Shown piece by piece: positions 20,757 through 32,782 of a stretch of DNA of 64,000 nucleotides. Source of the stretch: a virus; IMG/VR virus record IMGVR_UViG_3300032285_002723, positions 1-64,000 of that record. The stretch is one strand, 5' to 3'. The notes under the pieces were generated by a model. That model had not been told where the DNA came from, ran no database searches, and worked only from the letters and a program-made list of their open reading frames with translations. The position numbers and the translations under genes are program-made. Within the stretch, counting starts at the first letter, position 1; each line of letters starts with the position of its first letter.

Positions 20757-21585
20757 TCAACTTGGTAATAATGGTAGACTTGGAAATCAAATGTTTCAAT
20801 ATGCTGCTTTAAAAGGTATTGCACATCGTAGGGGATTTGATTACTGCATTCCTCCTTTTAATTCTCAAGGAATTGATAATTATGGACTTGGGGATGCTTT
20901 TGATATTCAATCTATTATTGATGTGGCAAATTTTCCATCAGTTGGCGAACCACATTTTCATTATAGTGAAGAGTTTCATAATACTTGTCCTGATAATGTA
21001 ACACTTATTGGATATTTTCAATCTGAAAAATATTTTAAAAATATTGAAGAACAAATTCGTCAAGACTTTATTTTTAAAAAAGAATGGTTGGAACCTTGCT
21101 TGCAATTTAGAAAAGAGTTTGAGGGGCAGGAAATTGCTTTTCTTCATGTTCGTCGTGGAGATCCAAATCTTGTAGATCGTAGGGGATTTAAATGGGCATA
21201 TGTGAATTGTTCTGATCAACATCCAGTTCAACCATTAGAATATTATGAGGAAGCAATTAAACTGCTTCCAGAAGATATGCCAATCCTTGTATTTTCGGAT
21301 TCAATTGAATGGTGTAAAGAACAAGAATTTTTTGCACCAGATCGTTTTATGTTATCTGAACCAGAAGATAAGTATTCTGATGGGGCTTTGGTTCCTTATA
21401 CAGATTTGTGCTTGATGTCTTTGTGTGATCATGCTATAATTGCAAATAGTAGTATGAGTTGGTGGGGTGCTTGGTTGATTCAAAATCCAAATAAAAAGGT
21501 TATTGCACCTAAAATGTGGTTTGGATCTTCGTATTCTCATCATAATACAAAAGACATTTATTGTGATGGTTGGGAGATTCTTTAA
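20743..21585 (+). CDS. Glycosyltransferase family 11 (alpha-1,2-fucosyltransferase-like)
   Basis: GT11 enzymes transfer L-fucose from GDP-fucose to galactose. The 280 residues show the family peptides: GNNGRLGNQMFQYAAL (motif near the N-terminus), FLHVRRGD (the conserved HxRRxD donor site), and ANSSMSWWGAWL near the end. The size matches the family. With GDP-mannose epimerase upstream, GDP-L-galactose could be the donor instead of GDP-L-fucose. No GDP-fucose synthase was found in the window. Confidence 0.9.
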   Translation: MLACNQLGNNGRLGNQMFQYAALKGIAHRRGFDYCIPPFNSQGIDNYGLGDAFDIQSIIDVANFPSVGEPHFHYSEEFHNTCPDNVTLIGYFQSEKYFKNIEEQIRQDFIFKKEWLEPCLQFRKEFEGQEIAFLHVRRGDPNLVDRRGFKWAYVNCSDQHPVQPLEYYEEAIKLLPEDMPILVFSDSIEWCKEQEFFAPDRFMLSEPEDKYSDGALVPYTDLCLMSLCDHAIIANSSMSWWGAWLIQNPNKKVIAPKMWFGSSYSHHNTKDIYCDGWEIL

Positions 21586-22409
21586 TGATCTATGTTTCTG
21601 GATCTAATGGTTTAATAGGTAAAGAGTTGGTTAAAAATTTCAGTAACTATATTCCAATTTCTTATCGCAATCAAGTTCCAGATGTAGAATTTTTACCTAA
21701 TTCTACCTTGGTACATCTATCCTCATCAATTACACCAAGGAACAATCTTACAGATTTGGAAGCATCATTTCAAAGTGATGTGCTGATTCCTTTTCAAATT
21801 TTTAAAAATTATTTAAAAACAAATCCAAATGGAAAAATTATTTTTCTTTCTACTGCTGGCGATTTGCATAGTTCTGAATCCAATATTATAAGTGATGAAA
21901 ATTCATTACCAAATCCAAAATCAATCTATGGCGTACACAAATTACTTTTAGAAAATTATATTAAATTACTTCACAAAACAAACAATTTTTCAAGTATAAT
22001 TTTTAGAGTCACTAATGTTTATGGTGGTGAACCTACACCAAACAGAGTAAATGGATTGATAGATAAACTCATCGTAAGTGATAATATTACAATAACTTCA
22101 AATATTGAAGAATCTATTGATTTTATTCATATGGATGATTTGATTAGTTTGTTGTTAAAATCAATACAAACAAAGTTGAGTGGATATAATTTATTTTTGG
22201 TTGGTAGTTCTAATTCTATTTCTATTCAAGAGTTGATAAAAAAAATTCTTCTTTATGTTTCTCCAACTATTACATATAAAAATGAAAATTCAAAACTTTC
22301 ATACATAAAAATAGACACCACAAAAGTAAAAAAATATTTCAATTGGAAATGTGAATATTCAATTGATAGTGGTATAATTAAACAAGTAAAAACTTTGAAT
22401 TCATTATGA
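21585..22409 (+). CDS. NAD-dependent sugar epimerase/dehydratase (third SDR)
   Basis: I chose ATG 21585 (MIYVSGSNGLIGKEL), which overlaps the GT11 stop as TAATG. The 274 residues include the Rossmann motif, FLSTAGDLHS, YGVHKLLLEN (catalytic Tyr and Lys) and FRVTNVYGG. It is an extended SDR of unknown NDP-sugar specificity. It lies exactly between GT11 and GT6, so it may supply a donor for either. Confidence 0.75.
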   Translation: MIYVSGSNGLIGKELVKNFSNYIPISYRNQVPDVEFLPNSTLVHLSSSITPRNNLTDLEASFQSDVLIPFQIFKNYLKTNPNGKIIFLSTAGDLHSSESNIISDENSLPNPKSIYGVHKLLLENYIKLLHKTNNFSSIIFRVTNVYGGEPTPNRVNGLIDKLIVSDNITITSNIEESIDFIHMDDLISLLLKSIQTKLSGYNLFLVGSSNSISIQELIKKILLYVSPTITYKNENSKLSYIKIDTTKVKKYFNWKCEYSIDSGIIKQVKTLNSL

Positions 22410-23125
22410 AAGTTGCTATTTCATTTTTTGGAACAGGAAGTTATTTAAATTTTCTTCCAAATTGGTATATGTCTATTCAGGATAATTTTCTTCCAGGTAT
22501 AGAAAAAAAATTTATTGTATTTACTGATGGGGAAGGTGATTTTCCAGAAGACGTAATTAAAATAGAAACAGAACATTTTGGATGGCCTGACGTTTTTTAT
22601 AAAACGTTTGAAACAATTTTAAGAGCAAAGGATATTATCAGTGAATGTGATTGGTTCATATCCATTGATGCTGATATGGTAGTCAAAAAAATTGTTTCTG
22701 TTGAAGAATTTTTAGATGATTCAAAAGATTATATTGGCGTTCATCATCCTTGTGCTTATTTAAAACTTCCCCCTCATAATAAGTTTCCTGGATCTTTTGA
22801 TATAAATCCATCATCAAATGCTTATATTACAGAAGATATGGATACTTCTGTTTATTATCAAGGGTGTTTGTGGGGTGGTAAAGTTCCAGAAATTATTGAA
22901 ATGATGGAACTTTTAGACAAATGGACAAAAGAAGATGAAGAAAAAAATACCACACCAGTGTGGTATGAAGAATCATATTTTAACAAATTCTTCATTACAA
23001 ATAAAGATAAAGTGAATACACTTTCTCCATCGTTTGCTTATCCAGAAGATTTTAAACAGTATTGTAATTTTGAAGAAAAAATTACACATATCTCTAAAAA
23101 TAATCAACAATATCATAATCAATAA
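22406..23125 (+). CDS. Glycosyltransferase family 6 (ABO/alpha-1,3-Gal or GalNAc transferase-like)
   Basis: GT6 holds the mammalian blood-group A/B and alpha-1,3-galactosyl transferases. The 239 residues lack an anchor and show the family landmarks: KFIVFTDG, ISIDADMVV (DxD metal site), YYQGCLWGGKVPEI, WYEESYFNKFF and TLSPSFAYP. They align with YYxGGFFGG, WHDESHLNKY and LSPEYLWD of the human enzymes. Cellular bacterial GT6 proteins mostly have NxN in place of DxD. A phage GT6 with DxD is known from cyanophage P-SSM2. Confidence 0.88.
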   Translation: MKVAISFFGTGSYLNFLPNWYMSIQDNFLPGIEKKFIVFTDGEGDFPEDVIKIETEHFGWPDVFYKTFETILRAKDIISECDWFISIDADMVVKKIVSVEEFLDDSKDYIGVHHPCAYLKLPPHNKFPGSFDINPSSNAYITEDMDTSVYYQGCLWGGKVPEIIEMMELLDKWTKEDEEKNTTPVWYEESYFNKFFITNKDKVNTLSPSFAYPEDFKQYCNFEEKITHISKNNQQYHNQ

Positions 23126-23127
23126 CT

Positions 23128-23904
23128 ATGACTAAAAAATTATCAGTTTATTATCATATTTGGAGTCCTGGTGGAACAGATCTTTGGAAATTGATGGTAG
23201 ACGAACAACTTAAAAGAATTTATCGCAGTGGTCTTTCAGAAAATGCTTCTATTTATTGTGCAATCAATGGACCACAAGCAAACCGAATTGCTGAATATGT
23301 TTCTATCTATGATTGGTTGACTATTCTTGATGTTTCAATTGATGAAAGTGAATATGAAGGATTTACTTTAAAACGAGCATATGAAGAAGCACATTTCAAT
23401 CCAGATTTAAAAGCAGTTGCTTATCTTCATACAAAAGGCATCAGTCATATGTGTGGAGTTCGGGATCACTATTCTGATCGTAAGTTTAGGGCAGTGAATA
23501 GTTGGAGGCATCAGATGGAATGGGGAATTCTTGATCGTTGGAAAGAAGCAGTAGAAAAACTTGACGAATATCAAGTTTCTGGTGTAAATTATTGTTTGGA
23601 TCCTTGGCCCCATATGAGTGGAAACTTTTGGTGGGCAAGAGCAGATTATGTTAAAACTTTAATTCATCCCATAAGAGATAGATTTCCAAATGACAATAGA
23701 GATTTTGGACCAATTCAAAGAATGAATTTTGAAAAGTGGATTGGATTAAATAATCCAAAATGCTTCAGTTTTTATGATGCTCCATTTAGTTATGATTTTA
23801 AAGGAATGATACCAGATGTACAACCAACTCCTCCAGGAGAACCACATTGGTTCTGGTTGTATAGAGACGACATTGAACCCTATTATAGAAAGGAAGGTAA
23901 TTGA
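23128..23904 (+). CDS. Glycosyltransferase-like protein with HTKG motif
   Basis: This 258-residue protein begins VYYHIWSPGGTDLW. It contains VAYLHTKGISHM near residue 100 and GNFWWARADYVKTL near residue 165, motifs seen in uncharacterised bacterial glycan-biosynthesis transferases. It ends PHWFWLYRDDIEPYY. It fits 2 nt after GT6 and just before another transferase. The family is recognised only by these motifs, so donor and linkage cannot be given. Confidence 0.65.
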   Translation: MTKKLSVYYHIWSPGGTDLWKLMVDEQLKRIYRSGLSENASIYCAINGPQANRIAEYVSIYDWLTILDVSIDESEYEGFTLKRAYEEAHFNPDLKAVAYLHTKGISHMCGVRDHYSDRKFRAVNSWRHQMEWGILDRWKEAVEKLDEYQVSGVNYCLDPWPHMSGNFWWARADYVKTLIHPIRDRFPNDNRDFGPIQRMNFEKWIGLNNPKCFSFYDAPFSYDFKGMIPDVQPTPPGEPHWFWLYRDDIEPYYRKEGN

Positions 23905-23905
23905 T

Positions 23906-24628
23906 ATGACTTTTGGATGCTTTCATACAGTATATGAAAATAAAAGAGCAACAGAGTTTATTTTGCAAGAGTTTAGAAAATTTTATCCAGATGCTCCTTA
24001 TACTTTAATTTGTGATGGTGGAGTAGATTACTCTGATTTAGCAAAAAAATATAACTGCAAATACGTTCATTCTTATATGCGTATTGGTAGAAGAAATTGG
24101 GGAGATCCTTCTGGAATTTATGGATTTACAAAAGATGAAAGTCTTCATTGGATTCACCATTTTCGTGAAGCAGCAAGACATGTGAAAGAAAATGGTGGAA
24201 CTCATATGATTATGATGGAAGATGATGTTCTTACTCAAGGAGAAGTAAAGATTGATCCATCTTGGGAATGTGCTGGATTTGATGTTCCAGGAAATAAAAT
24301 TGCTCCCAATCTTCTTTCTTATATTACTGATAAGTATGGAGCAAAACCAAATGTAGATTGGTATGGTGCTGGTGGTGGAAGTATCTATAATATTGAAACT
24401 TTTCTAGATAACTATCATAAAATTTATGATTTTATTGATTTTGAATTTGATTATATTTTGGAAAATCTAGATCATAGATTTGGATGGTTGGATCTTTATA
24501 TGCAAATTGCTTATTTTATTTGTGGTAAAGATTATGTTATTAATACCAACCTAACAGAAACTTGGAAGACACCTGATTTTAGGAATTCTCAATACTCACT
24601 TGTTCACGCATACAAAGAGCTTTACTGA
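23906..24628 (+). CDS. Glycosyltransferase, GT-A-like
   Basis: The start MTFGCFHTVYENKRATEF at 23906 gives 240 residues. A likely metal-binding site is IMMEDDVL near residue 95, with the nucleotide-binding N-terminus YTLICDGGVDYSDL. GAGGGSIYN and a Trp-rich end follow (ETWKTPDF). The GT-A fold is inferred from the DD motif and context. The specific family is not identified. It sits 1 nt after the HTKG protein. Confidence 0.65.
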   Translation: MTFGCFHTVYENKRATEFILQEFRKFYPDAPYTLICDGGVDYSDLAKKYNCKYVHSYMRIGRRNWGDPSGIYGFTKDESLHWIHHFREAARHVKENGGTHMIMMEDDVLTQGEVKIDPSWECAGFDVPGNKIAPNLLSYITDKYGAKPNVDWYGAGGGSIYNIETFLDNYHKIYDFIDFEFDYILENLDHRFGWLDLYMQIAYFICGKDYVINTNLTETWKTPDFRNSQYSLVHAYKELY

Positions 24629-24629
24629 T

Positions 24630-25595
24630 ATGAATATTGCAATGATTGGTCCTGGTATTATGCCAATTCCTCCTGATGGTTGGGGAGCAGTTGAAAGTTT
24701 AATTTGGGATTATGCTCTTGAACTTGATAAATTGGGACATACTGGCACTATTATTAATACCCCAAATTGGAATGAGATTTTAAATTATCTGAAAGAAGAT
24801 AATTATGATTTCGCGCATCTTCATTATGATGTATTTCATGAACTTCTAGACCTTATTCCAGATGTTCCTAAAATTGCTTTAAGTAGTCATTATCCTTATA
24901 TTGACCAATCTTATATGCATCGTAGGGATGGATATGATAAAACTTTTGATTTTATTATTAAAAATAAAAAGTATTATATCTTTTGTATTTCTAAAAAAGA
25001 TTATCAAACATTTAAAAATGCTGGTGCTGATGAAAGTAAACTTTTGCTTTCTGAAAATGGAGCAAATCATGAGACCTTTACTTATTCTAAAGAACCAGTA
25101 AAGGCAAATCGTTCATTGTATCTTGGGCAAATTTATCATCGTAAAAAGCAGTGGATATATCAATCTATTGATTGTATTGATTTTGTGGGAAAGGATAGTA
25201 ATTCCACACCTTTTGATGCTTCAATCAATTATCTTGGTGAATGGTCAGATGAACATAAAAAACAACATTTGACTGATTACGGAAATCTTGTTCTTCTTTC
25301 TGATGGAGAAAATGGAACACCATTGGTTGTAAAAGAAGCACTGATTAATGGTCTTGGTGTTGTGATTTCCAAGTATGCTGCTCATGATGTGGACACATCT
25401 CTTCCTTTTATCACCTTAATTGATGATGACAAATTGGAAGATATTGAATATGTGAAAAATAAGATTGAAGAAAATCGTCAAGCATCTTTGCCTATTCGTG
25501 ATGAAATTCGTGACTATGCAATGGAAAACTTTTCTTGGGAAAAACTAGTAAAACTTTATATTCAAAATATTGAAAAAATGGAGCCTATTCAATGA
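24630..25595 (+). CDS. Glycosyltransferase family 4-like (copy 1)
   Basis: The start MNIAMIGPGIMPIPPDGW at 24630 gives a 321-residue GT-B enzyme. The N-terminal block GWGAVESLIW and the C-terminal LLSDGENGTPLVVKEAL (with the EX7E-type Glu pair) are GT4-like. The neighbouring 25592 gene is a clear paralogue, sharing the IPP-GWGAVE start, NYLGEWS and LLSDGE. The stop overlaps the next start by 4 nt. Confidence 0.82.
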   Translation: MNIAMIGPGIMPIPPDGWGAVESLIWDYALELDKLGHTGTIINTPNWNEILNYLKEDNYDFAHLHYDVFHELLDLIPDVPKIALSSHYPYIDQSYMHRRDGYDKTFDFIIKNKKYYIFCISKKDYQTFKNAGADESKLLLSENGANHETFTYSKEPVKANRSLYLGQIYHRKKQWIYQSIDCIDFVGKDSNSTPFDASINYLGEWSDEHKKQHLTDYGNLVLLSDGENGTPLVVKEALINGLGVVISKYAAHDVDTSLPFITLIDDDKLEDIEYVKNKIEENRQASLPIRDEIRDYAMENFSWEKLVKLYIQNIEKMEPIQ

Positions 25596-26545
25596 GAATT
25601 TGTATCATTGGTCCTGGATTTTCGCAGATTCCACCAGTTGGTTGGGGTGCAGTTGAAATTGTAATTTGGGATACAGCAAATACTTTGAAAGAATTGGGTC
25701 ATCAGGTAGACATCATTAATACTACAAATCCACAAGAAATTATTGGAACAATTAATCAAATTAATCCTGATTTTGTTCACGTTCATTATGATGATTATGT
25801 GTTCTTATATCCATATATTCAGTTTCCAAAAGCAATTACAACACATTATGGTTATCTAGAAAGACCAGAAATGTATGGTGCTTATTCTTATAAAGCAAAT
25901 CAATTTGCAAATATCAAACCAAATGTATTTGCTTTATCGGAAGGGATTAAAAATATCTATCAAAATCAAATGAGAATACCAGAGGATAACTTATATGTTG
26001 TTCCAAATGGTGTAACTAATGATAAATTTAGATTTACCGATTCTCCAAAATTTCCAAATAGAAGCATCTATCTTGCAAAAGTAGATTACAGAAAACGTCA
26101 GTGTTTATTTCAAAATATTCCATCAATTTATTATGCTGGAAATATTGTAGATGAAAGATTTGATGTAAATGAAAATTATCTTGGCGAATGGTCAAAAGAA
26201 GATTTATATAATAATTTAACTGATTATGCAAATCTTATTTTGCTTTCTGATGGTGAAGCACATGCTCTTGTTTGTATGGAAGCACTTGCTGCTGGATTGG
26301 GTCTTGTTATTTCTGAATGGGCAACTGCTAATTTGGATTTGGATAAAGATTTTATTACGGTAATACCAGAAAGTAAAATTATTGATTTAAATTATGTATC
26401 ATCAAAAATTGAAGAAAATAGAACTATATCTTTACAAAAAAGAAATGAAATAGTAGAATACTCAAAAGAATTTGCTTGGAAAAAGCAAATTGAAACTTAC
26501 TATATTCCATCTGTAAAAAAAGTCATACAAAAATTTAATGGATAA
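25592..26545 (+). CDS. Glycosyltransferase family 4-like (copy 2)
   Basis: This 317-residue paralogue of the preceding gene begins MRICIIGPGFSQIPPVGW and contains GWGAVEIVIW, NYLGEWSKED and LLSDGEAHALVCMEALAAGLG. The tandem arrangement shows a duplication with divergence, probably giving two related linkages or acceptor specificities. It overlaps the GT25 gene by 8 nt. Confidence 0.82.
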   Translation: MRICIIGPGFSQIPPVGWGAVEIVIWDTANTLKELGHQVDIINTTNPQEIIGTINQINPDFVHVHYDDYVFLYPYIQFPKAITTHYGYLERPEMYGAYSYKANQFANIKPNVFALSEGIKNIYQNQMRIPEDNLYVVPNGVTNDKFRFTDSPKFPNRSIYLAKVDYRKRQCLFQNIPSIYYAGNIVDERFDVNENYLGEWSKEDLYNNLTDYANLILLSDGEAHALVCMEALAAGLGLVISEWATANLDLDKDFITVIPESKIIDLNYVSSKIEENRTISLQKRNEIVEYSKEFAWKKQIETYYIPSVKKVIQKFNG

Positions 26546-27332
26546 AAATAAATCTGTATATAAACTTAAAAATATTCCTCCAATTTATTATTTGAATCTT
26601 GATGGGCAACCAGAAAGAAAACAATATATGGAAGAACAATTTAAATATTGGGAAATTGAAAATTATACTAGAATTTCTGCATATGATGGCAGAACAGATG
26701 ATTTGAGTGATATTATTTCTGGAAGATATCCAGATAATATGACCTCTGGTGAAATTGGATGCACTACTTCTCATTTAAAAGCAATTAAACATTGGATTGA
26801 AACATCAGATTCGCAATGTGCTATCTTTATGGAAGATGATGTTGATTTGCAAATTGCAAAGTATTGGGATTTTACTTGGAAAGATTTTCAATCACTTGTT
26901 CCTTATGATTATGATGTAATTCAACTTGCAATTATTTGTACAGGTCCATTGCATGTCAAACTACATCGTAGATTTGTAAATGATTTTTCAACTGCAGCTT
27001 ATATGATTACTCGTCATCACGCGGAAAAACTGCTTAAATTTCATATACGTAATGAAAAATATAAACTTGATAATGGATCTAAACCTAGAGCGGTTGCAGA
27101 TGATTTGATTTATAATTCTGGAAATACTTTTTCTATTCCAATATTCCTTTATAAAATTGCTTTAGGGTCTTCTATTCATCCTGAACACGTTGACATTTTT
27201 CACAAATCAAGTCATGATGGTCTAGTTGATTTTTGGTCTCAAAATGGAGCAAAAATGAATATTCGTGAATTGATGGATTACGATCCTTATCTTGGAAGGA
27301 TGACTGAAAATCCACCAGAACAAAATACTTGA
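26538..27332 (+). CDS. Glycosyltransferase family 25 (LPS-type)
   Basis: GT25 enzymes add galactose or glucose to lipooligosaccharide or other acceptors. The 264 residues show PIYYLNLDGQPERKQYM at the start and the family block GEIGCTTSHLKAIKHW. The DxD-type site is AIFMEDDVDLQ, and a later AAYMITRHHAEKLL is present. It is the last gene of the glycan operon. A promoter for the porin overlaps its stop codon. Confidence 0.9.
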   Translation: MDKNKSVYKLKNIPPIYYLNLDGQPERKQYMEEQFKYWEIENYTRISAYDGRTDDLSDIISGRYPDNMTSGEIGCTTSHLKAIKHWIETSDSQCAIFMEDDVDLQIAKYWDFTWKDFQSLVPYDYDVIQLAIICTGPLHVKLHRRFVNDFSTAAYMITRHHAEKLLKFHIRNEKYKLDNGSKPRAVADDLIYNSGNTFSIPIFLYKIALGSSIHPEHVDIFHKSSHDGLVDFWSQNGAKMNIRELMDYDPYLGRMTENPPEQNT

Positions 27333-27357
27333 CAAATCACTAAAAGTACCTTAAAAT
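27329..27357 (+). promoter_or_regulatory. Sigma-70-like promoter for the porin gene
   Basis: TTGACA (27329-27334), 17 bp and TAAAAT (27352-27357). The -35 overlaps the GT25 stop. A CATAAATA late-like box lies at about 27385. The porin ATG is at 27455. Confidence 0.75.
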
Positions 27358-27395
27358 ACCATTGTCTTAAGATTTGATTAAGATACATAAATACC

Positions 27396-27421
27396 GAAGA
27401 TTTACTTTGTTGTAAATCTTC
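27396..27421 (+). repeat. 10-bp perfect hairpin in the porin leader
   Basis: GAAGATTTAC (27396-27405) and GTAAATCTTC (27412-27421) flank a TTTGTT loop, 33 nt before the porin start. There is no T-tract, so a stability or regulatory role is likelier than termination. Confidence 0.6.
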
Positions 27422-27454
27422 ATATTGTCGTTTAGTACAAAAAAACAAATTTCT

Positions 27455-28357
27455 ATGAAAATCAAACAACTGATGCTTGCGCCTGTTGCTCTTGGACTGA
27501 TTGCTCCTGCCGCACAAGCAGCAGACATTAATCTTTCCGCAGTCAACCAATATGCTTCGGCAGAACAGGTTACAAGTGTTTCTCAACTGCGTGATGTGCA
27601 ACCTACTGACTGGTCTTATCAGGCAATTTCAAATCTGGTATCGCGTTATGGATGTGTTGCTGGTTTCCCTAACGGAACTTTTCAACCAGGACAGCCTGCC
27701 ACTCGTGCTCAACTTGCTGCTCTGACTAGTGCTTGCTTGGATCGCATTAGTGAGTACCAAACTGCTGCTGATGCTGCTCTTGCTGCTGCTCTTCGTGCTC
27801 AATTCTCTAAAGAGATTGCTGCTACCAACACCCGTGTGAGTGCCCTTGAGGTCGCCGCTGCCCAGAAAGCACAAGGCGTCGGCAACTATCTTGGTCTTGG
27901 TGTTTTGCTAAACAACGTTGGCACTGGTGGGAATCCGAACAACACTGTGTCTGGTGGCACACTACAAGCTCGTTATGCTGTGAAAAACTACAGCAATAAT
28001 AATGCTGTTTCAGTCCGTCCTTACATCAATGCCGTTGCTGGTCCTAACAGTCAAATCGGTGCTGCTGGTGGTGCAACTGCTACTTATGACTTTGCAATCG
28101 CTCGTAAAGCAGGTGTGAGTGCTGCTAACATCTACACTGGTGTTGGTTATCAAGTTCCTTTTGTGAACAACACTCAATCTAACGCTCAAAATGCTGTTGG
28201 TCTTTCCAATGGTCAAGCAGTATTTGTGCTTGGTGCTGAAGGTCGTATCACCAACTCTCTGGTTGGATTTGCTGATCTGAAGTTCCCTACCAACACTTCT
28301 GCTAACAATGGTAGTTACAGTCCTGTGTTTACCACTGGTCTTGGATTTAAGTTCTGA
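27455..28357 (+). CDS. S-layer-homology (SLH) outer-membrane porin-like protein
   Basis: I chose MKIKQLMLAPVALG at 27455 because it opens a clear signal peptide with cleavage near AAQAA (residue 22-23). Residues about 40-92 form a cyanobacterial SLH domain (LRDVQPTDWSYQAISNL, YGCVAGFPNGTFQPG, TRAQLAALTSACLDRI). A short coiled coil follows (about 95-140). The last 155 residues alternate like a small beta barrel and end TTGLGFKF, with a terminal Phe typical of BAM substrates. At 300 aa it is much shorter than normal SomA-type porins. It looks host-derived and GC-rich. Confidence 0.85.
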   Translation: MKIKQLMLAPVALGLIAPAAQAADINLSAVNQYASAEQVTSVSQLRDVQPTDWSYQAISNLVSRYGCVAGFPNGTFQPGQPATRAQLAALTSACLDRISEYQTAADAALAAALRAQFSKEIAATNTRVSALEVAAAQKAQGVGNYLGLGVLLNNVGTGGNPNNTVSGGTLQARYAVKNYSNNNAVSVRPYINAVAGPNSQIGAAGGATATYDFAIARKAGVSAANIYTGVGYQVPFVNNTQSNAQNAVGLSNGQAVFVLGAEGRITNSLVGFADLKFPTNTSANNGSYSPVFTTGLGFKF

Positions 28358-28367
28358 TAATTGATTT

Positions 28368-28393
28368 GGGGTGCTTGACACCCCTTTCTTTTT
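28368..28393 (+). terminator. Porin terminator carrying a -35 element across its loop
   Basis: GGGGTG (28368-28373) pairs with CACCCC (28379-28384) around CTTGA, followed by TTTCTTTTT. TTGACA of the hli promoter spans the loop. Confidence 0.9.
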
Positions 28394-28403
28394 ACTATAT
28401 AAT
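28375..28403 (+). promoter_or_regulatory. Perfect consensus promoter of the hli operon
   Basis: TTGACA (28375-28380), exactly 17 bp and TATAAT (28398-28403), 29 nt before the hli ATG. Its -35 is part of the porin terminator hairpin. Confidence 0.85.
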
Positions 28404-28432: not shown

Positions 28433-28642
28433 ATGACGATAACGACCAATGAGCACGGGCAACAAAATATGTTTGCGCGTGAACCAAAGATGTACATCTC
28501 TGATGAGGATGCCATCAAGTATGGCATGATGACCCACAATGAGAGAGCAGAACTTGCTAACGGACGCTGGGCTATGCTAGGATTTATTGCAGGCATCGTG
28601 TCTTACGTTGCTACTGGTAAACTATTCTTTGGTGTTTTCTGA
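28433..28642 (+). CDS. hli: High-light-inducible protein (Hli)
   Basis: This 69-residue Hli protein has the chlorophyll-binding helix ELANGRWAMLGFIAGIV near residues 40-56, with the ELxxGRxAM signature. Hli proteins bind chlorophyll and carotenoid in the thylakoid and dissipate excess energy, protecting photosystem II during infection. Its stop overlaps the next small ATG by one base. Confidence 0.92.
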   Translation: MTITTNEHGQQNMFAREPKMYISDEDAIKYGMMTHNERAELANGRWAMLGFIAGIVSYVATGKLFFGVF

Positions 28643-29024: not shown

Positions 29025-29720
29025 ATGAAAATAGATCTTCATAACTTTTTTCTACATTATGATGAAAAGAATCCAAAGCACGTTGCAGCAGTGGAGCAAC
29101 TTGAAAAGGATTTGGAGCAAAAGCAACCAGATTTGATTGAGGATGAATCAAACTGGGTAAGAATTTTCAGAGAGAAGGCACCAGTTCCTGCACAGGTAGG
29201 AGTATTGTCAGTTCCTTATTATCCACAAACAGATAATTATAGAGATGCTAATCGTACTTGCAACAGTTCTTCTTGTGCTATGTGTCTTGAATATCTTAAA
29301 CCAGGTACTCTAAAAGGAGCAAAGGGAGACGATGCCTACATTCAAAAGGTATTCGCAATTGGTGACTCAACAGATCACACAGTTCAAACCCGTGTTCTTG
29401 AGAGCTATGGTGTTAAGTCACAGTTTAGTTACAATCTTTCTTTTTCTGATCTTGATAAGAGTTTATCTGCTGGTAAACCTGTCGTTATTGGTATTCTGCA
29501 TAGGGGTTCTCTTTCTGCACCTACTGGTGGGCACATGGTTGTAGTGATTGGTAAGAAAGGTCAAGACTATGTTGTGAATGATCCTTATGGTTCTCTCAAT
29601 GACGGATATACTGGTTCTGTGACCAACGGTAAAGGTGCCGTATATAAGAAATCAGATTTAACTCATAGATGGTTAGATCATAGTAAAGATAAGACTGGAT
29701 GGGGAAGAATTTTCAAATGA
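29025..29720 (+). CDS. C39-like cysteine peptidase (peptidase_C39_2 type)
   Basis: This 231-residue protein has a charged N-terminal part (about 1-55) and then a papain-like C39 fold. RTCNSSSCAMCLEYL near residue 85 has the catalytic-type Cys, GGHMVVVIG near 168 the His, and YVVNDPYG near 180 the Asp. The stop overlaps the endolysin start by 4 nt. The substrate may be peptidoglycan cross-links or a protein. The coupling to endolysin suggests lysis. Confidence 0.72.
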   Translation: MKIDLHNFFLHYDEKNPKHVAAVEQLEKDLEQKQPDLIEDESNWVRIFREKAPVPAQVGVLSVPYYPQTDNYRDANRTCNSSSCAMCLEYLKPGTLKGAKGDDAYIQKVFAIGDSTDHTVQTRVLESYGVKSQFSYNLSFSDLDKSLSAGKPVVIGILHRGSLSAPTGGHMVVVIGKKGQDYVVNDPYGSLNDGYTGSVTNGKGAVYKKSDLTHRWLDHSKDKTGWGRIFK

Positions 29721-30178
29721 CTTTAAAGGCAGGAATAGATTTAATTAAAAAATTTGAAGGTTGTAGATTAAAATTTTATCCAGATCCTGCAACTGGTGGT
29801 AAACCTTATACAATTGGATGGGGTTCTACCAAAGATACTCACGGCAAACCATTTGGATTGGGAGCAACTATTACTCAAGAGCAGGCAGATACTTTATTGG
29901 AATATACAATAGAGCATGAATATCTACCAGCACTGAATAAAATCCCACACTGGAATGAAATGAATGAGAATCAAAAAGGAGCACTTTTATCTTTTGCTTA
30001 TAATCTTGGTGCTAATTTCTATGGGTCTTCCAATTTTAATACCATAACCAAAGTTCTTAAAAATAAAGAATGGAGCAAAGTTCCTGATGCTCTTTATCTT
30101 TATCGCAATCCTGGTTCTAATGTTGAAGCAGGTCTTGCTCGCAGAAGAAAAGCAGAAGGAGATTTGTGGAAAAAGTAA
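29717..30178 (+). CDS. Endolysin, GH24 (T4-lysozyme-type)
   Basis: The start MTLKAGIDLIKKFEG at 29717 overlaps the peptidase stop (ATGA). The 153 residues are lysozyme-like. KKFEGCRLKFYPDP has the catalytic Glu, YTIGWGSTKDTHG is the active-site beta strands, and ARRRKAEGDLW is the C-terminal signature. It hydrolyses peptidoglycan glycan strands to release progeny. No signal peptide is visible, so release would need a holin. Confidence 0.9.
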   Translation: MTLKAGIDLIKKFEGCRLKFYPDPATGGKPYTIGWGSTKDTHGKPFGLGATITQEQADTLLEYTIEHEYLPALNKIPHWNEMNENQKGALLSFAYNLGANFYGSSNFNTITKVLKNKEWSKVPDALYLYRNPGSNVEAGLARRRKAEGDLWKK

Positions 30179-30691: not shown

Positions 30692-32782
30692 ATGAGTATT
30701 TTTAAGAAGACTATCAAGTATTCTAAACCTTTGAGGGATTTGGATAACAAGATAAAAAATCTTGATGAGGAACTTGGACAAACAGGAGTCATTGGTGAGC
30801 AAGATGACACTGAAGTTTTGTGTGTTCAAGAGTCTTCCGTAGAAAAATTACCAAAAATATATGATAGACTAGAAGTTCAAAAAGAAAAAGAAACTTTATA
30901 TAATTGGAGAGAATCTTTTATTGTAGAAGAAACTAATGATAAACCTGTAGTAATAGATGAGACTTATCATAAAACTGTAGGTAGAGTTGAAAGATATATT
31001 TCTGAAAGTAATAAAGAACTGATTGAAATAAGAAACCAAGTATTTCAAGAAATTTCCGAATCTACATTATTAAATCTTCCAGAAATCAAATGCAAGATTG
31101 AGAAAGTATTGGAAATTTATGATCAAATACAGGAAGGTTTGTTAAATGAACCACCCTCAACAAAAAATTCTGATCCTCTTACTCCATTAGATCAAAATTT
31201 TGTAACAATAGAAGATTTAAATAAGCACTACAACTTATTTGTAAATCGTATTCAAGAACAGATTGCCACTATTGGTGGTGGTGGTGAATATCGTTTTCAA
31301 TATCTTGATGGTATTGTAGGTATTCAAACAAATTCTGCTTCTTATAATGGTAAGTATTTGCAGTGGAACTCTGCAACCAATAAAGCAGAGTTTGTGACAG
31401 TAAGTAGTGGTGGTAGTAATGGTATATCAACTTATGCATCCATAGCAGGTATAGCAACTTATGCTACATCAGCAGGTATAGCAACTTATGCAACCTCTAG
31501 TGGTATATCAACTTATGCTACATCAGCAGGTATAGCAACTTATGCAACCTCTAGTGGTATAGCAACTTATGCAACCTCTAGTGGTATATCAACTTATGCA
31601 ACAAAAGCAGGAGTATCAACAAATGTAATAGGTGGTATTGCATCAGTAACTTCATTATCAGTTTCCGGTATTACAACTTTAGGTGTAGTTACTTCTGTAA
31701 CTTCAATAAATTTTGCTAGTGGTGGATTATTGGGTGATCCATACCAAGATGGAGGATTTGGATTAAAATCTGCCGGTGGTCAATATAAATATGCTACTAT
31801 TGCTAGTAACAATCTACAGCAATATCTTCAAGTTGATGACAATATAATTTATATTGGAACAGGTTATGCATCAACTACTGGTAATTACAATTGGGTATTT
31901 AAAAAAGATGGTAGTACAGAATTTCCTAATAGTTTAATTCTAGCTCCTGGCAGCCAAAGCATTACTTTACAGAGTGATCAATATTCCCAGTTGATGTGGA
32001 TGAACGCGGATCAGACAGTAGGGCCTAATAAGTTTACCAACGTAGATTTTTTTGTCGCATCTGGATATGCTACTTTAGACATAGGTTATCGTGATGGTGC
32101 TAGTGATCAACAATTCAAATCTTGGCTTTGGAATATAGATGGATTACAATTCCCAGATCTCACATTACAAACTACTGCATTTACTGGTTATGCAGATAAT
32201 GCAGGCATAGCAACCTATGCTGCATCAAGTGGTATAGCAACTTATGCTTCTTCTAGTGGGTTATCCACAAGTTCCACAACTGCTGGTTATGCAACTACCT
32301 CTGGAATTTCTACAACATCACAAGGTCTTACAGGAACTCCAAATATTTCTGTAGGTGTTATAACTGCAACAGACTATCGTATTCAATCTGTTGCAGAAAA
32401 AACTACTCTTGTTGGTCTGAATACTGCTAATTTAGTTTATAATACTGGTGGTGGTAATATTGCAATCTGTACCAATCCAAGTGGTGATATTACACTGAAT
32501 GTAACTGGTATTCCTACTGCTAGTTCCTTTGATAATTACTCACTTGCATTTAGTGTGATTGTAACAAATACGGGAACAGCAAGAAGTTGTACTGCAATTA
32601 CATTAAATGGAGTATCAAGAACAATCAAATGGTTTGGTGGTTCTCTTGCATCGGCAATTTCTGGAGTTACCACATCAAATGGATATGATGTTTATAGTTT
32701 CACCGGAATTAATACCGTAGGTTCGGCAAGTACAACCGCAAATTATATTGTGCTTGGTAGTGTGAATGGAAGTTATAGATAA
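30692..32782 (+). CDS. Tail-fibre-like protein with tandem YAT repeats
   Basis: This 696-residue protein has an N-terminal coiled-coil or charged region (about residues 1-190), then a glycine-rich switch (IGGGGEYRFQYLDG). Seven perfect-period 9-residue repeats follow (GIATYATSA-type, about 244-306), with three degenerate copies later. The C-terminal 200 residues are beta-rich (TNTGTARSCTAITLNG). The layout is that of an attachment or fibre protein. Repeat number may vary by slippage. The next gene starts at its stop (TAATG). Confidence 0.75.
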   Translation: MSIFKKTIKYSKPLRDLDNKIKNLDEELGQTGVIGEQDDTEVLCVQESSVEKLPKIYDRLEVQKEKETLYNWRESFIVEETNDKPVVIDETYHKTVGRVERYISESNKELIEIRNQVFQEISESTLLNLPEIKCKIEKVLEIYDQIQEGLLNEPPSTKNSDPLTPLDQNFVTIEDLNKHYNLFVNRIQEQIATIGGGGEYRFQYLDGIVGIQTNSASYNGKYLQWNSATNKAEFVTVSSGGSNGISTYASIAGIATYATSAGIATYATSSGISTYATSAGIATYATSSGIATYATSSGISTYATKAGVSTNVIGGIASVTSLSVSGITTLGVVTSVTSINFASGGLLGDPYQDGGFGLKSAGGQYKYATIASNNLQQYLQVDDNIIYIGTGYASTTGNYNWVFKKDGSTEFPNSLILAPGSQSITLQSDQYSQLMWMNADQTVGPNKFTNVDFFVASGYATLDIGYRDGASDQQFKSWLWNIDGLQFPDLTLQTTAFTGYADNAGIATYAASSGIATYASSSGLSTSSTTAGYATTSGISTTSQGLTGTPNISVGVITATDYRIQSVAEKTTLVGLNTANLVYNTGGGNIAICTNPSGDITLNVTGIPTASSFDNYSLAFSVIVTNTGTARSCTAITLNGVSRTIKWFGGSLASAISGVTTSNGYDVYSFTGINTVGSASTTANYIVLGSVNGSYR
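31421..31609 (+). repeat. Seven 27-bp tandem repeats in fibre gene
   Basis: Units start GGTATA-GCAACTTATGC and differ by a few bases. Each encodes GI(A/S)TYA plus three residues. Three further degenerate units lie at 32204-32284. The period is a multiple of 3, so changes keep the frame. Confidence 0.9.

Follow-up and report, generated by a model that had tools for sequence, protein, structure and literature searches.

Phage PA-2 encodes the Lc/NmpC porin, and phage-encoded porins as such are therefore already known; the Lom protein of phage lambda is an eight-strand outer-membrane barrel. A literature search on PA-2/NmpC porin cases returned nothing usable. In diderm Terrabacteria, SLH outer-membrane proteins tether the outer membrane to the wall, the loss of OmpM detaches this membrane, and a pyruvylated wall polymer is bound in vitro by the cyanobacterial SLH domain (PMC10628300). 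A Synechocystis mutant in slr1908, which encodes an SLH/OprB protein, hypervesiculates (PMC8707739). Among cyanophages, gene p168 of S-PM2 was described in a 2010 review as transcribed early and abundantly, and a protective role against infection or grazing was proposed for its product (PMC2984593). A shorter 'S-layer domain protein', T4-GC 425, was found in several cyanophages in a 2010 comparison (PMC3037559).

The window, the whole 64,000-nucleotide stretch analysed here (positions 1 to 64,000 of IMG/VR virus record IMGVR_UViG_3300032285_002723), contains a gene for a 300-residue protein. From its N-terminus on, the protein has a signal peptide, a linker of the porin type, a single SLH domain, and a coiled coil, and its C-terminal region ends in phenylalanine (...TTGLGFKF) (Table 1). 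An earlier note made from the sequence had proposed this layout, apart from the linker, and it is confirmed by the translation, by the PF00395 match to residues 46-88 (E 6.5e-11), and by an AlphaFold2 model. The gene is located after a family 25 glycosyltransferase (GT25) gene and before a high-light-inducible/chlorophyll-binding-like (hli) gene; the note had placed it between a glycan island and hli genes. The dN/dS values of 0.04-0.21 in codon comparisons with relatives indicate purifying selection, and the open reading frame is therefore a gene under selection and not a chance one. Cys67, inside the SLH domain, and Cys94, just past it, are invariant in alignments of the short-barrel and full-length families described below, and may form a disulphide.

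Table 1. Features of the SLH-barrel gene and its surroundings, in window coordinates.
Feature	Coordinates	Strand	Basis or remark
Glycosyltransferase family 25 (GT25), upstream neighbour	26538..27332	+	also upstream of both forms in relatives
Sigma-70-like promoter TTGACA-17-TAAAAT, 11/12	27329..27357	+	sequence match
Leader inverted repeat, 10-11 pairs, sequence type of full-length loci	27395..27422	+	also scored as minus-strand terminator-like site
Leader sequence TGTCGTTTAGTAC	27426..27438	+	recurs upstream of both forms
CDS, outer-membrane protein with SLH, coiled coil and predicted 8-strand barrel	27455..28357	+	300 aa
Signal peptide, residues 1-22 (...AQA)	27455..27520	+	sequence; cleavage site judged by eye
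Approximate recombination junction	27553..27568	+	upstream DNA resembles full-length-porin loci, downstream DNA short-barrel loci
SLH domain, residues 46-88	27590..27718	+	profile match
Coiled-coil stalk, helix 104-140	27764..27874	+	AlphaFold2
Predicted 8-strand outer-membrane barrel, C-terminal Phe	27887..28354	+	AlphaFold2, fold matches, strand pattern
Terminator-like hairpin 3' of gene	28368..28384	+	sequence
High-light-inducible/chlorophyll-binding-like gene (hli), downstream neighbour	28433..28642	+	also downstream of both forms

The N-terminal SLH domain and coiled coil relate the protein to the cyanobacterial SLH/OprB porins (SomA/SomB, Slr1841, Slr1908; NF033921). The linker is also shared, whereas the OprB barrel of the porins is replaced by an unrelated barrel with eight predicted strands. 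Profile NF033921 (por_somb) covers only residues 39-137 of the window protein (profile positions 1-107 of 485) with a score of 89.2 bits, below the curated cut-off of 100; the full-length phage porin gp283 of S-SRM01 scores 286 bits over positions 1-485. A profile search did not detect PF04966 (OprB) in the window protein but found it in the positive control, S-SRM01 gp283 (E 9.8e-15). In a host-porin comparison that covered plasmid-borne porins of cyanobacteria, the matches were restricted to residues ~26-137, with 37-48% identity for the porins listed. The solved structures related by sequence are SLH proteins (Veillonella OmpM1), and their significant matches are limited to the N-terminal region, the SLH domain, and the coil. 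Because the porin matches are confined to the N-terminal part, the C-terminal 160 residues are not recognisable as the OprB barrel of SomA. The protein is thus a combination of a porin-like SLH domain and coil with a separate barrel, and not the miniature SomA-type porin that the earlier note had suggested; the kinship to the SomA family holds for the SLH and coil part and fails for the barrel. The database name 'iron uptake porin' is misleading, because it derives from the SLH and coil part and is silent on the barrel.

The AlphaFold2 model, calculated from 39 sequences, contains a helix at residues 104-140 and eight strands within residues 145-299 (145-157, 160-178, 184-195, 201-218, 221-235, 254-264, 269-278, and 291-299), and thus lacks the approximately 16 strands of an OprB-type barrel. 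The block-mean pLDDT over the barrel is mostly 74-94, with some loops at 57-71; the SLH part is modelled with a low confidence of 30-60. Hydrophobic residues alternate with polar residues or glycines, so that each predicted strand has one hydrophobic and one polar face. The lowest conservation or the most indels are found mainly in the predicted outer loops L1, L2, and L4. Foldseek matched the model to Ail, OmpA, the N-terminal barrel of OprF, and OmpX (TM by target about 0.5-0.69), to NspA, and also to OmpW/OprG. The antiparallel, barrel-like fold is, by prediction, that of the eight-strand outer-membrane barrels of the OmpA/OmpX/Ail type, which supports the part of the earlier note that described a phage-encoded, SLH-anchored outer-membrane barrel. 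However, the likeness to OmpA, OmpX, Ail, and OprF is not accompanied by detectable sequence homology, and a profile search with the window protein gave no match to families of eight-strand barrels such as PF13505.

Barrels of the OmpA/OmpX type are usually closed or very narrow, normally too narrow for the general diffusion of nutrients, and some small barrels (OmpW/OprG) pass small hydrophobic solutes. With eight predicted strands of this type, 'porin' is a poor name for the window protein, and a general pore is unlikely on the basis of the model. OmpA also links the outer membrane with peptidoglycan, through a C-terminal OmpA-like wall domain, whereas the window protein has an N-terminal SLH anchor. 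Veillonella OmpM1 (8bym/8bys) shares the arrangement of SLH domain, stalk, and outer-membrane barrel, and tethers the outer membrane (PMC10628300), but it is a large-barrel general porin.

Among viral models, Foldseek identified S-PM2 p168 and, with 21% identity and a TM of 0.73 by target, a protein of phage S-CBWM1 that consists of the barrel alone. The S-CBWM1 protein was assigned as gp38 from its length of 156 aa and matches the PF13505-type family only with E 0.41. S-CBWM1 gp38 has a barrel of related fold without an SLH anchor, and SLH anchoring is therefore not essential for every cyanophage small barrel. No cellular relative of the barrel was found when 84,980 bacterial and archaeal genomes were scanned twice, once with the entire protein and once with an alignment of the barrel, which is a weak negative because both scans rely on short exact seeds. 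A PHROGs search with the window protein returned no informative family.

The short-barrel family is, by sequence comparison, already known. S-PM2 p168 ('putative S-layer protein', T4-GC 861) and S-CREM1 gp199 ('iron uptake porin') are end-to-end homologues of the same architecture, with 63-74% identity in the mature protein (residues 29-300 to 45-300), the whole barrel included; the identity of the barrel alone is 68-71%. A relative is encoded by 231 IMG/VR stretches, and the best 80 of the 231, which were read, are full-length over the barrel, so that the family includes at least 80 virus contigs. The earlier note considered the protein probably novel, an expectation overturned by these homologues and by the protective role proposed for the S-PM2 protein in 2010. 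S-PM2 p168 and S-CREM1 gp199 differ from the window protein in leader and signal peptide, and the local gene order in S-CREM1 is unlike that of the window. What appears new is the locus, with its two alternative forms.

The alternative form is a full-length SLH-OprB porin, represented by the ~487-residue gp283 of S-SRM01. A scan with this porin retrieved 506 related stretches, and short-form genes may account for some of them; the best 80 of the 506 align with it from end to end or nearly so. This full-length form is widespread among cyanophage contigs (IMG/VR L091-L170; S-SRM01 L085). For one relative of S-SRM01 gp283 (L119), 16 strands are predicted (mean pLDDT 61), and the model matches OmpM1, OprB, and the phosphate porin OprP. 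The two forms share the neighbourhood of the locus, the type of N-terminus found in the window, promoters, and leaders, but they differ in the predicted barrel, eight strands against 16. The earlier note knew of no characterised phage porin of this kind; true full-length porins are encoded at this locus by other cyanophages, although the window protein is not one of them.

Exactly one form, short or full-length, is present in each of 22 records of 87-284 kb, which may be incomplete; the coexistence of both forms was not seen in any of them. The T4-type capsid gene Gp23 was found in 14 of 23 records, with both forms among them, and is absent from the window's own fragment. In samples of the best-scoring 80 loci per form, to which all proportions refer, hli lies downstream of 46 short and 25 full-length loci, and GT25 upstream of 12 short and 25 full-length loci. 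Dps-like, ferredoxin-like, and peroxiredoxin-like genes, named, like other unprofiled neighbours, from sequence features and annotated relatives, neighbour both forms. In a tree of the neighbouring GT25 (18 distinct rows), the form switches three or more times and shows no clustering. A PstS-like gene lies directly downstream in 31 full-length loci versus one short locus. After the removal of near-copies, the proportions are 18/44 and 1/45 (Fisher 4e-6). The PstS family TIGR00975 was detected in 6 of 12 full-length records and in none of 11 short records, the window's included. It is possible from this gene arrangement that the full-length porin and the adjacent PstS-like protein constitute a phage-made phosphate-uptake pair.

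A third small barrel, the cyanophage family Phage_OMP (PF24653), takes the equivalent place in phage DSL-LC02 (L082:8950-9321), with glycosyltransferase genes on one side and hli on the other. Like the window protein, it has a signal peptide, but it is 123 aa long and lacks SLH domain and coil. The window protein has no sequence match to this family, and a profile search with a positive control that gave a signal found PF24653 nowhere in the window's record. Its coexistence with an SLH form was seen neither in 23 SLH-form records nor in six named phages.

The window gene itself is, from DNA comparison, a recombinant: its leader and signal peptide match those of the full-length form, and the remainder matches the short form. 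The DNA from ~27351 to 27555, which comprises the leader and the signal-peptide codons, shares 80-84% identity with full-length loci (e.g. L165, L161, L145), and that from 27565 on shares 82-84% with short loci (L001, L002). The signal peptide is of the type of phage full-length porins, unlike those of other short-barrel proteins, and the 15-residue porin-type linker is present in the window protein and in full-length phage porins, but missing from all other short proteins aligned. The opposite exchange is seen in two full-length porins (L115, L116), whose signal peptide resembles those of the short-barrel proteins.

Promoter-like sites scoring 10/12 or better are present near the same position in 27 of 58 short and 35 of 57 full-length upstream regions, versus 4% of shuffles in a background of simple mononucleotide shuffling. 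The downstream hli gene has a separate 12/12 promoter-like site (28375-28403). With its own promoter-like site and terminator-like hairpin, the gene therefore looks like its own transcription unit. It is probably expressed early, by analogy with S-PM2. Right before the start codon (27395-27438), the inverted repeat is combined with TGTCGTTTAGTAC. The hairpin type of the window, GAAGATTTAC...GTAAATCTTC, also occurs in full-length loci, and another type is common to short and full-length forms. Since the position of the repeat recurs while its sequence varies among relatives, the comparison suggests a selected RNA or DNA element. TGTCGTTTAGTAC was ruled out as a genome-wide regulatory repeat, as it has a single copy in the 88.6-kb record.

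The reading given the most weight, with a probability of about 0.5, is that the protein is an early-expressed, OmpA-like tether between outer membrane and wall that doubles as a surface protein during infection, and not a diffusion porin. A strong host-type promoter would drive the gene, probably early in infection, and the signal peptide would export the product. The SLH domain would bind the host polysaccharide linked to the cell wall, as in host SLH porins, the coil would span the periplasm, and the OmpA/OmpX-like barrel would sit in the outer membrane with its loops at the surface. Host SLH porins would probably be supplemented or displaced while the host envelope is remodelled, so that the envelope would be kept intact and its surface changed without added permeability. 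The short form would be one of two interchangeable forms at the locus, the other being the full-length porin, often with PstS.

The main rival, to which about half as much weight is given, is superinfection exclusion by receptor masking: the barrel loops would cover or displace a receptor, a host porin or LPS, and other phages or sister virions could not adsorb. It would fit the variable or indel-rich loops L1, L2, and L4, the glycosyltransferases encoded upstream of the gene here and in many relatives, and the protection from infection or grazing suggested in 2010 (PMC2984593). However, the variability of the loops is only moderate, and the overall dN/dS of 0.04-0.21 gives no sign of diversifying selection. 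A small pore selective for a metal or another small solute, as the name 'iron uptake porin' would imply, is less likely. The iron-uptake-porin model does match the N-terminus, OmpW/OprG is within the fold matches, and Dps-like genes lie near the locus in some relatives, but the OprB barrel is absent, only eight strands are predicted, and pstS accompanies the full-length form (18/44) and not the short one (1/45). The name itself stems from the SLH and coil alone (S-PM2 p168 matches NF033921 only at profile positions 6-71 of 485). Least likely, and improbable, is a structural protein of the virion whose SLH domain binds the host wall at entry. The SLH domains of host proteins bind wall polymers, and the S-PM2 virion genes p173 and p175 are a few genes from p168. 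Nevertheless, the signal peptide, barrel, and C-terminal phenylalanine are features of export and outer-membrane insertion, and the S-PM2 record flags p173/p175 as virion proteins and p168 just as putative S-layer. Virion mass spectrometry of S-CREM1 found 14 proteins (four structural, nine of unknown function, one without matches), and gp199 is not obviously among them (PMC9964418).

In a broader and more tentative extension of the tether reading, the locus may be a modular outer-membrane cassette. A constant early promoter, signal peptide, and SLH anchor would be joined by recombination either to a full-size, PstS-coupled phosphate porin or to a closed eight-strand barrel that holds and coats the outer membrane, with host porins displaced. 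If so, the form carried would determine how permeable the infected cell is and what surface it presents, and lytic cyanophages would rebuild its outer membrane, beyond photosynthesis, with their own wall-anchored proteins from a swappable module. The pstS link with the full-length form makes a simple test possible, phosphate feeding by one form against sealing or masking by the other.

The surroundings of the gene contain further phage genes. A run of glycosyltransferase and sugar-nucleotide genes at 21570-27332 partly resembles that of phages DSL-LC02/LC03. Downstream, a C39-like peptidase gene overlaps a phage lysozyme gene (29025-30178), and genes related to these two are found repeatedly near the short and the full-length form. 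An open reading frame of 696 aa at 30692-32782 contains repeats of a GIATYATSAGISTYAT-like unit, has no match in Pfam, and may encode a fibre protein.
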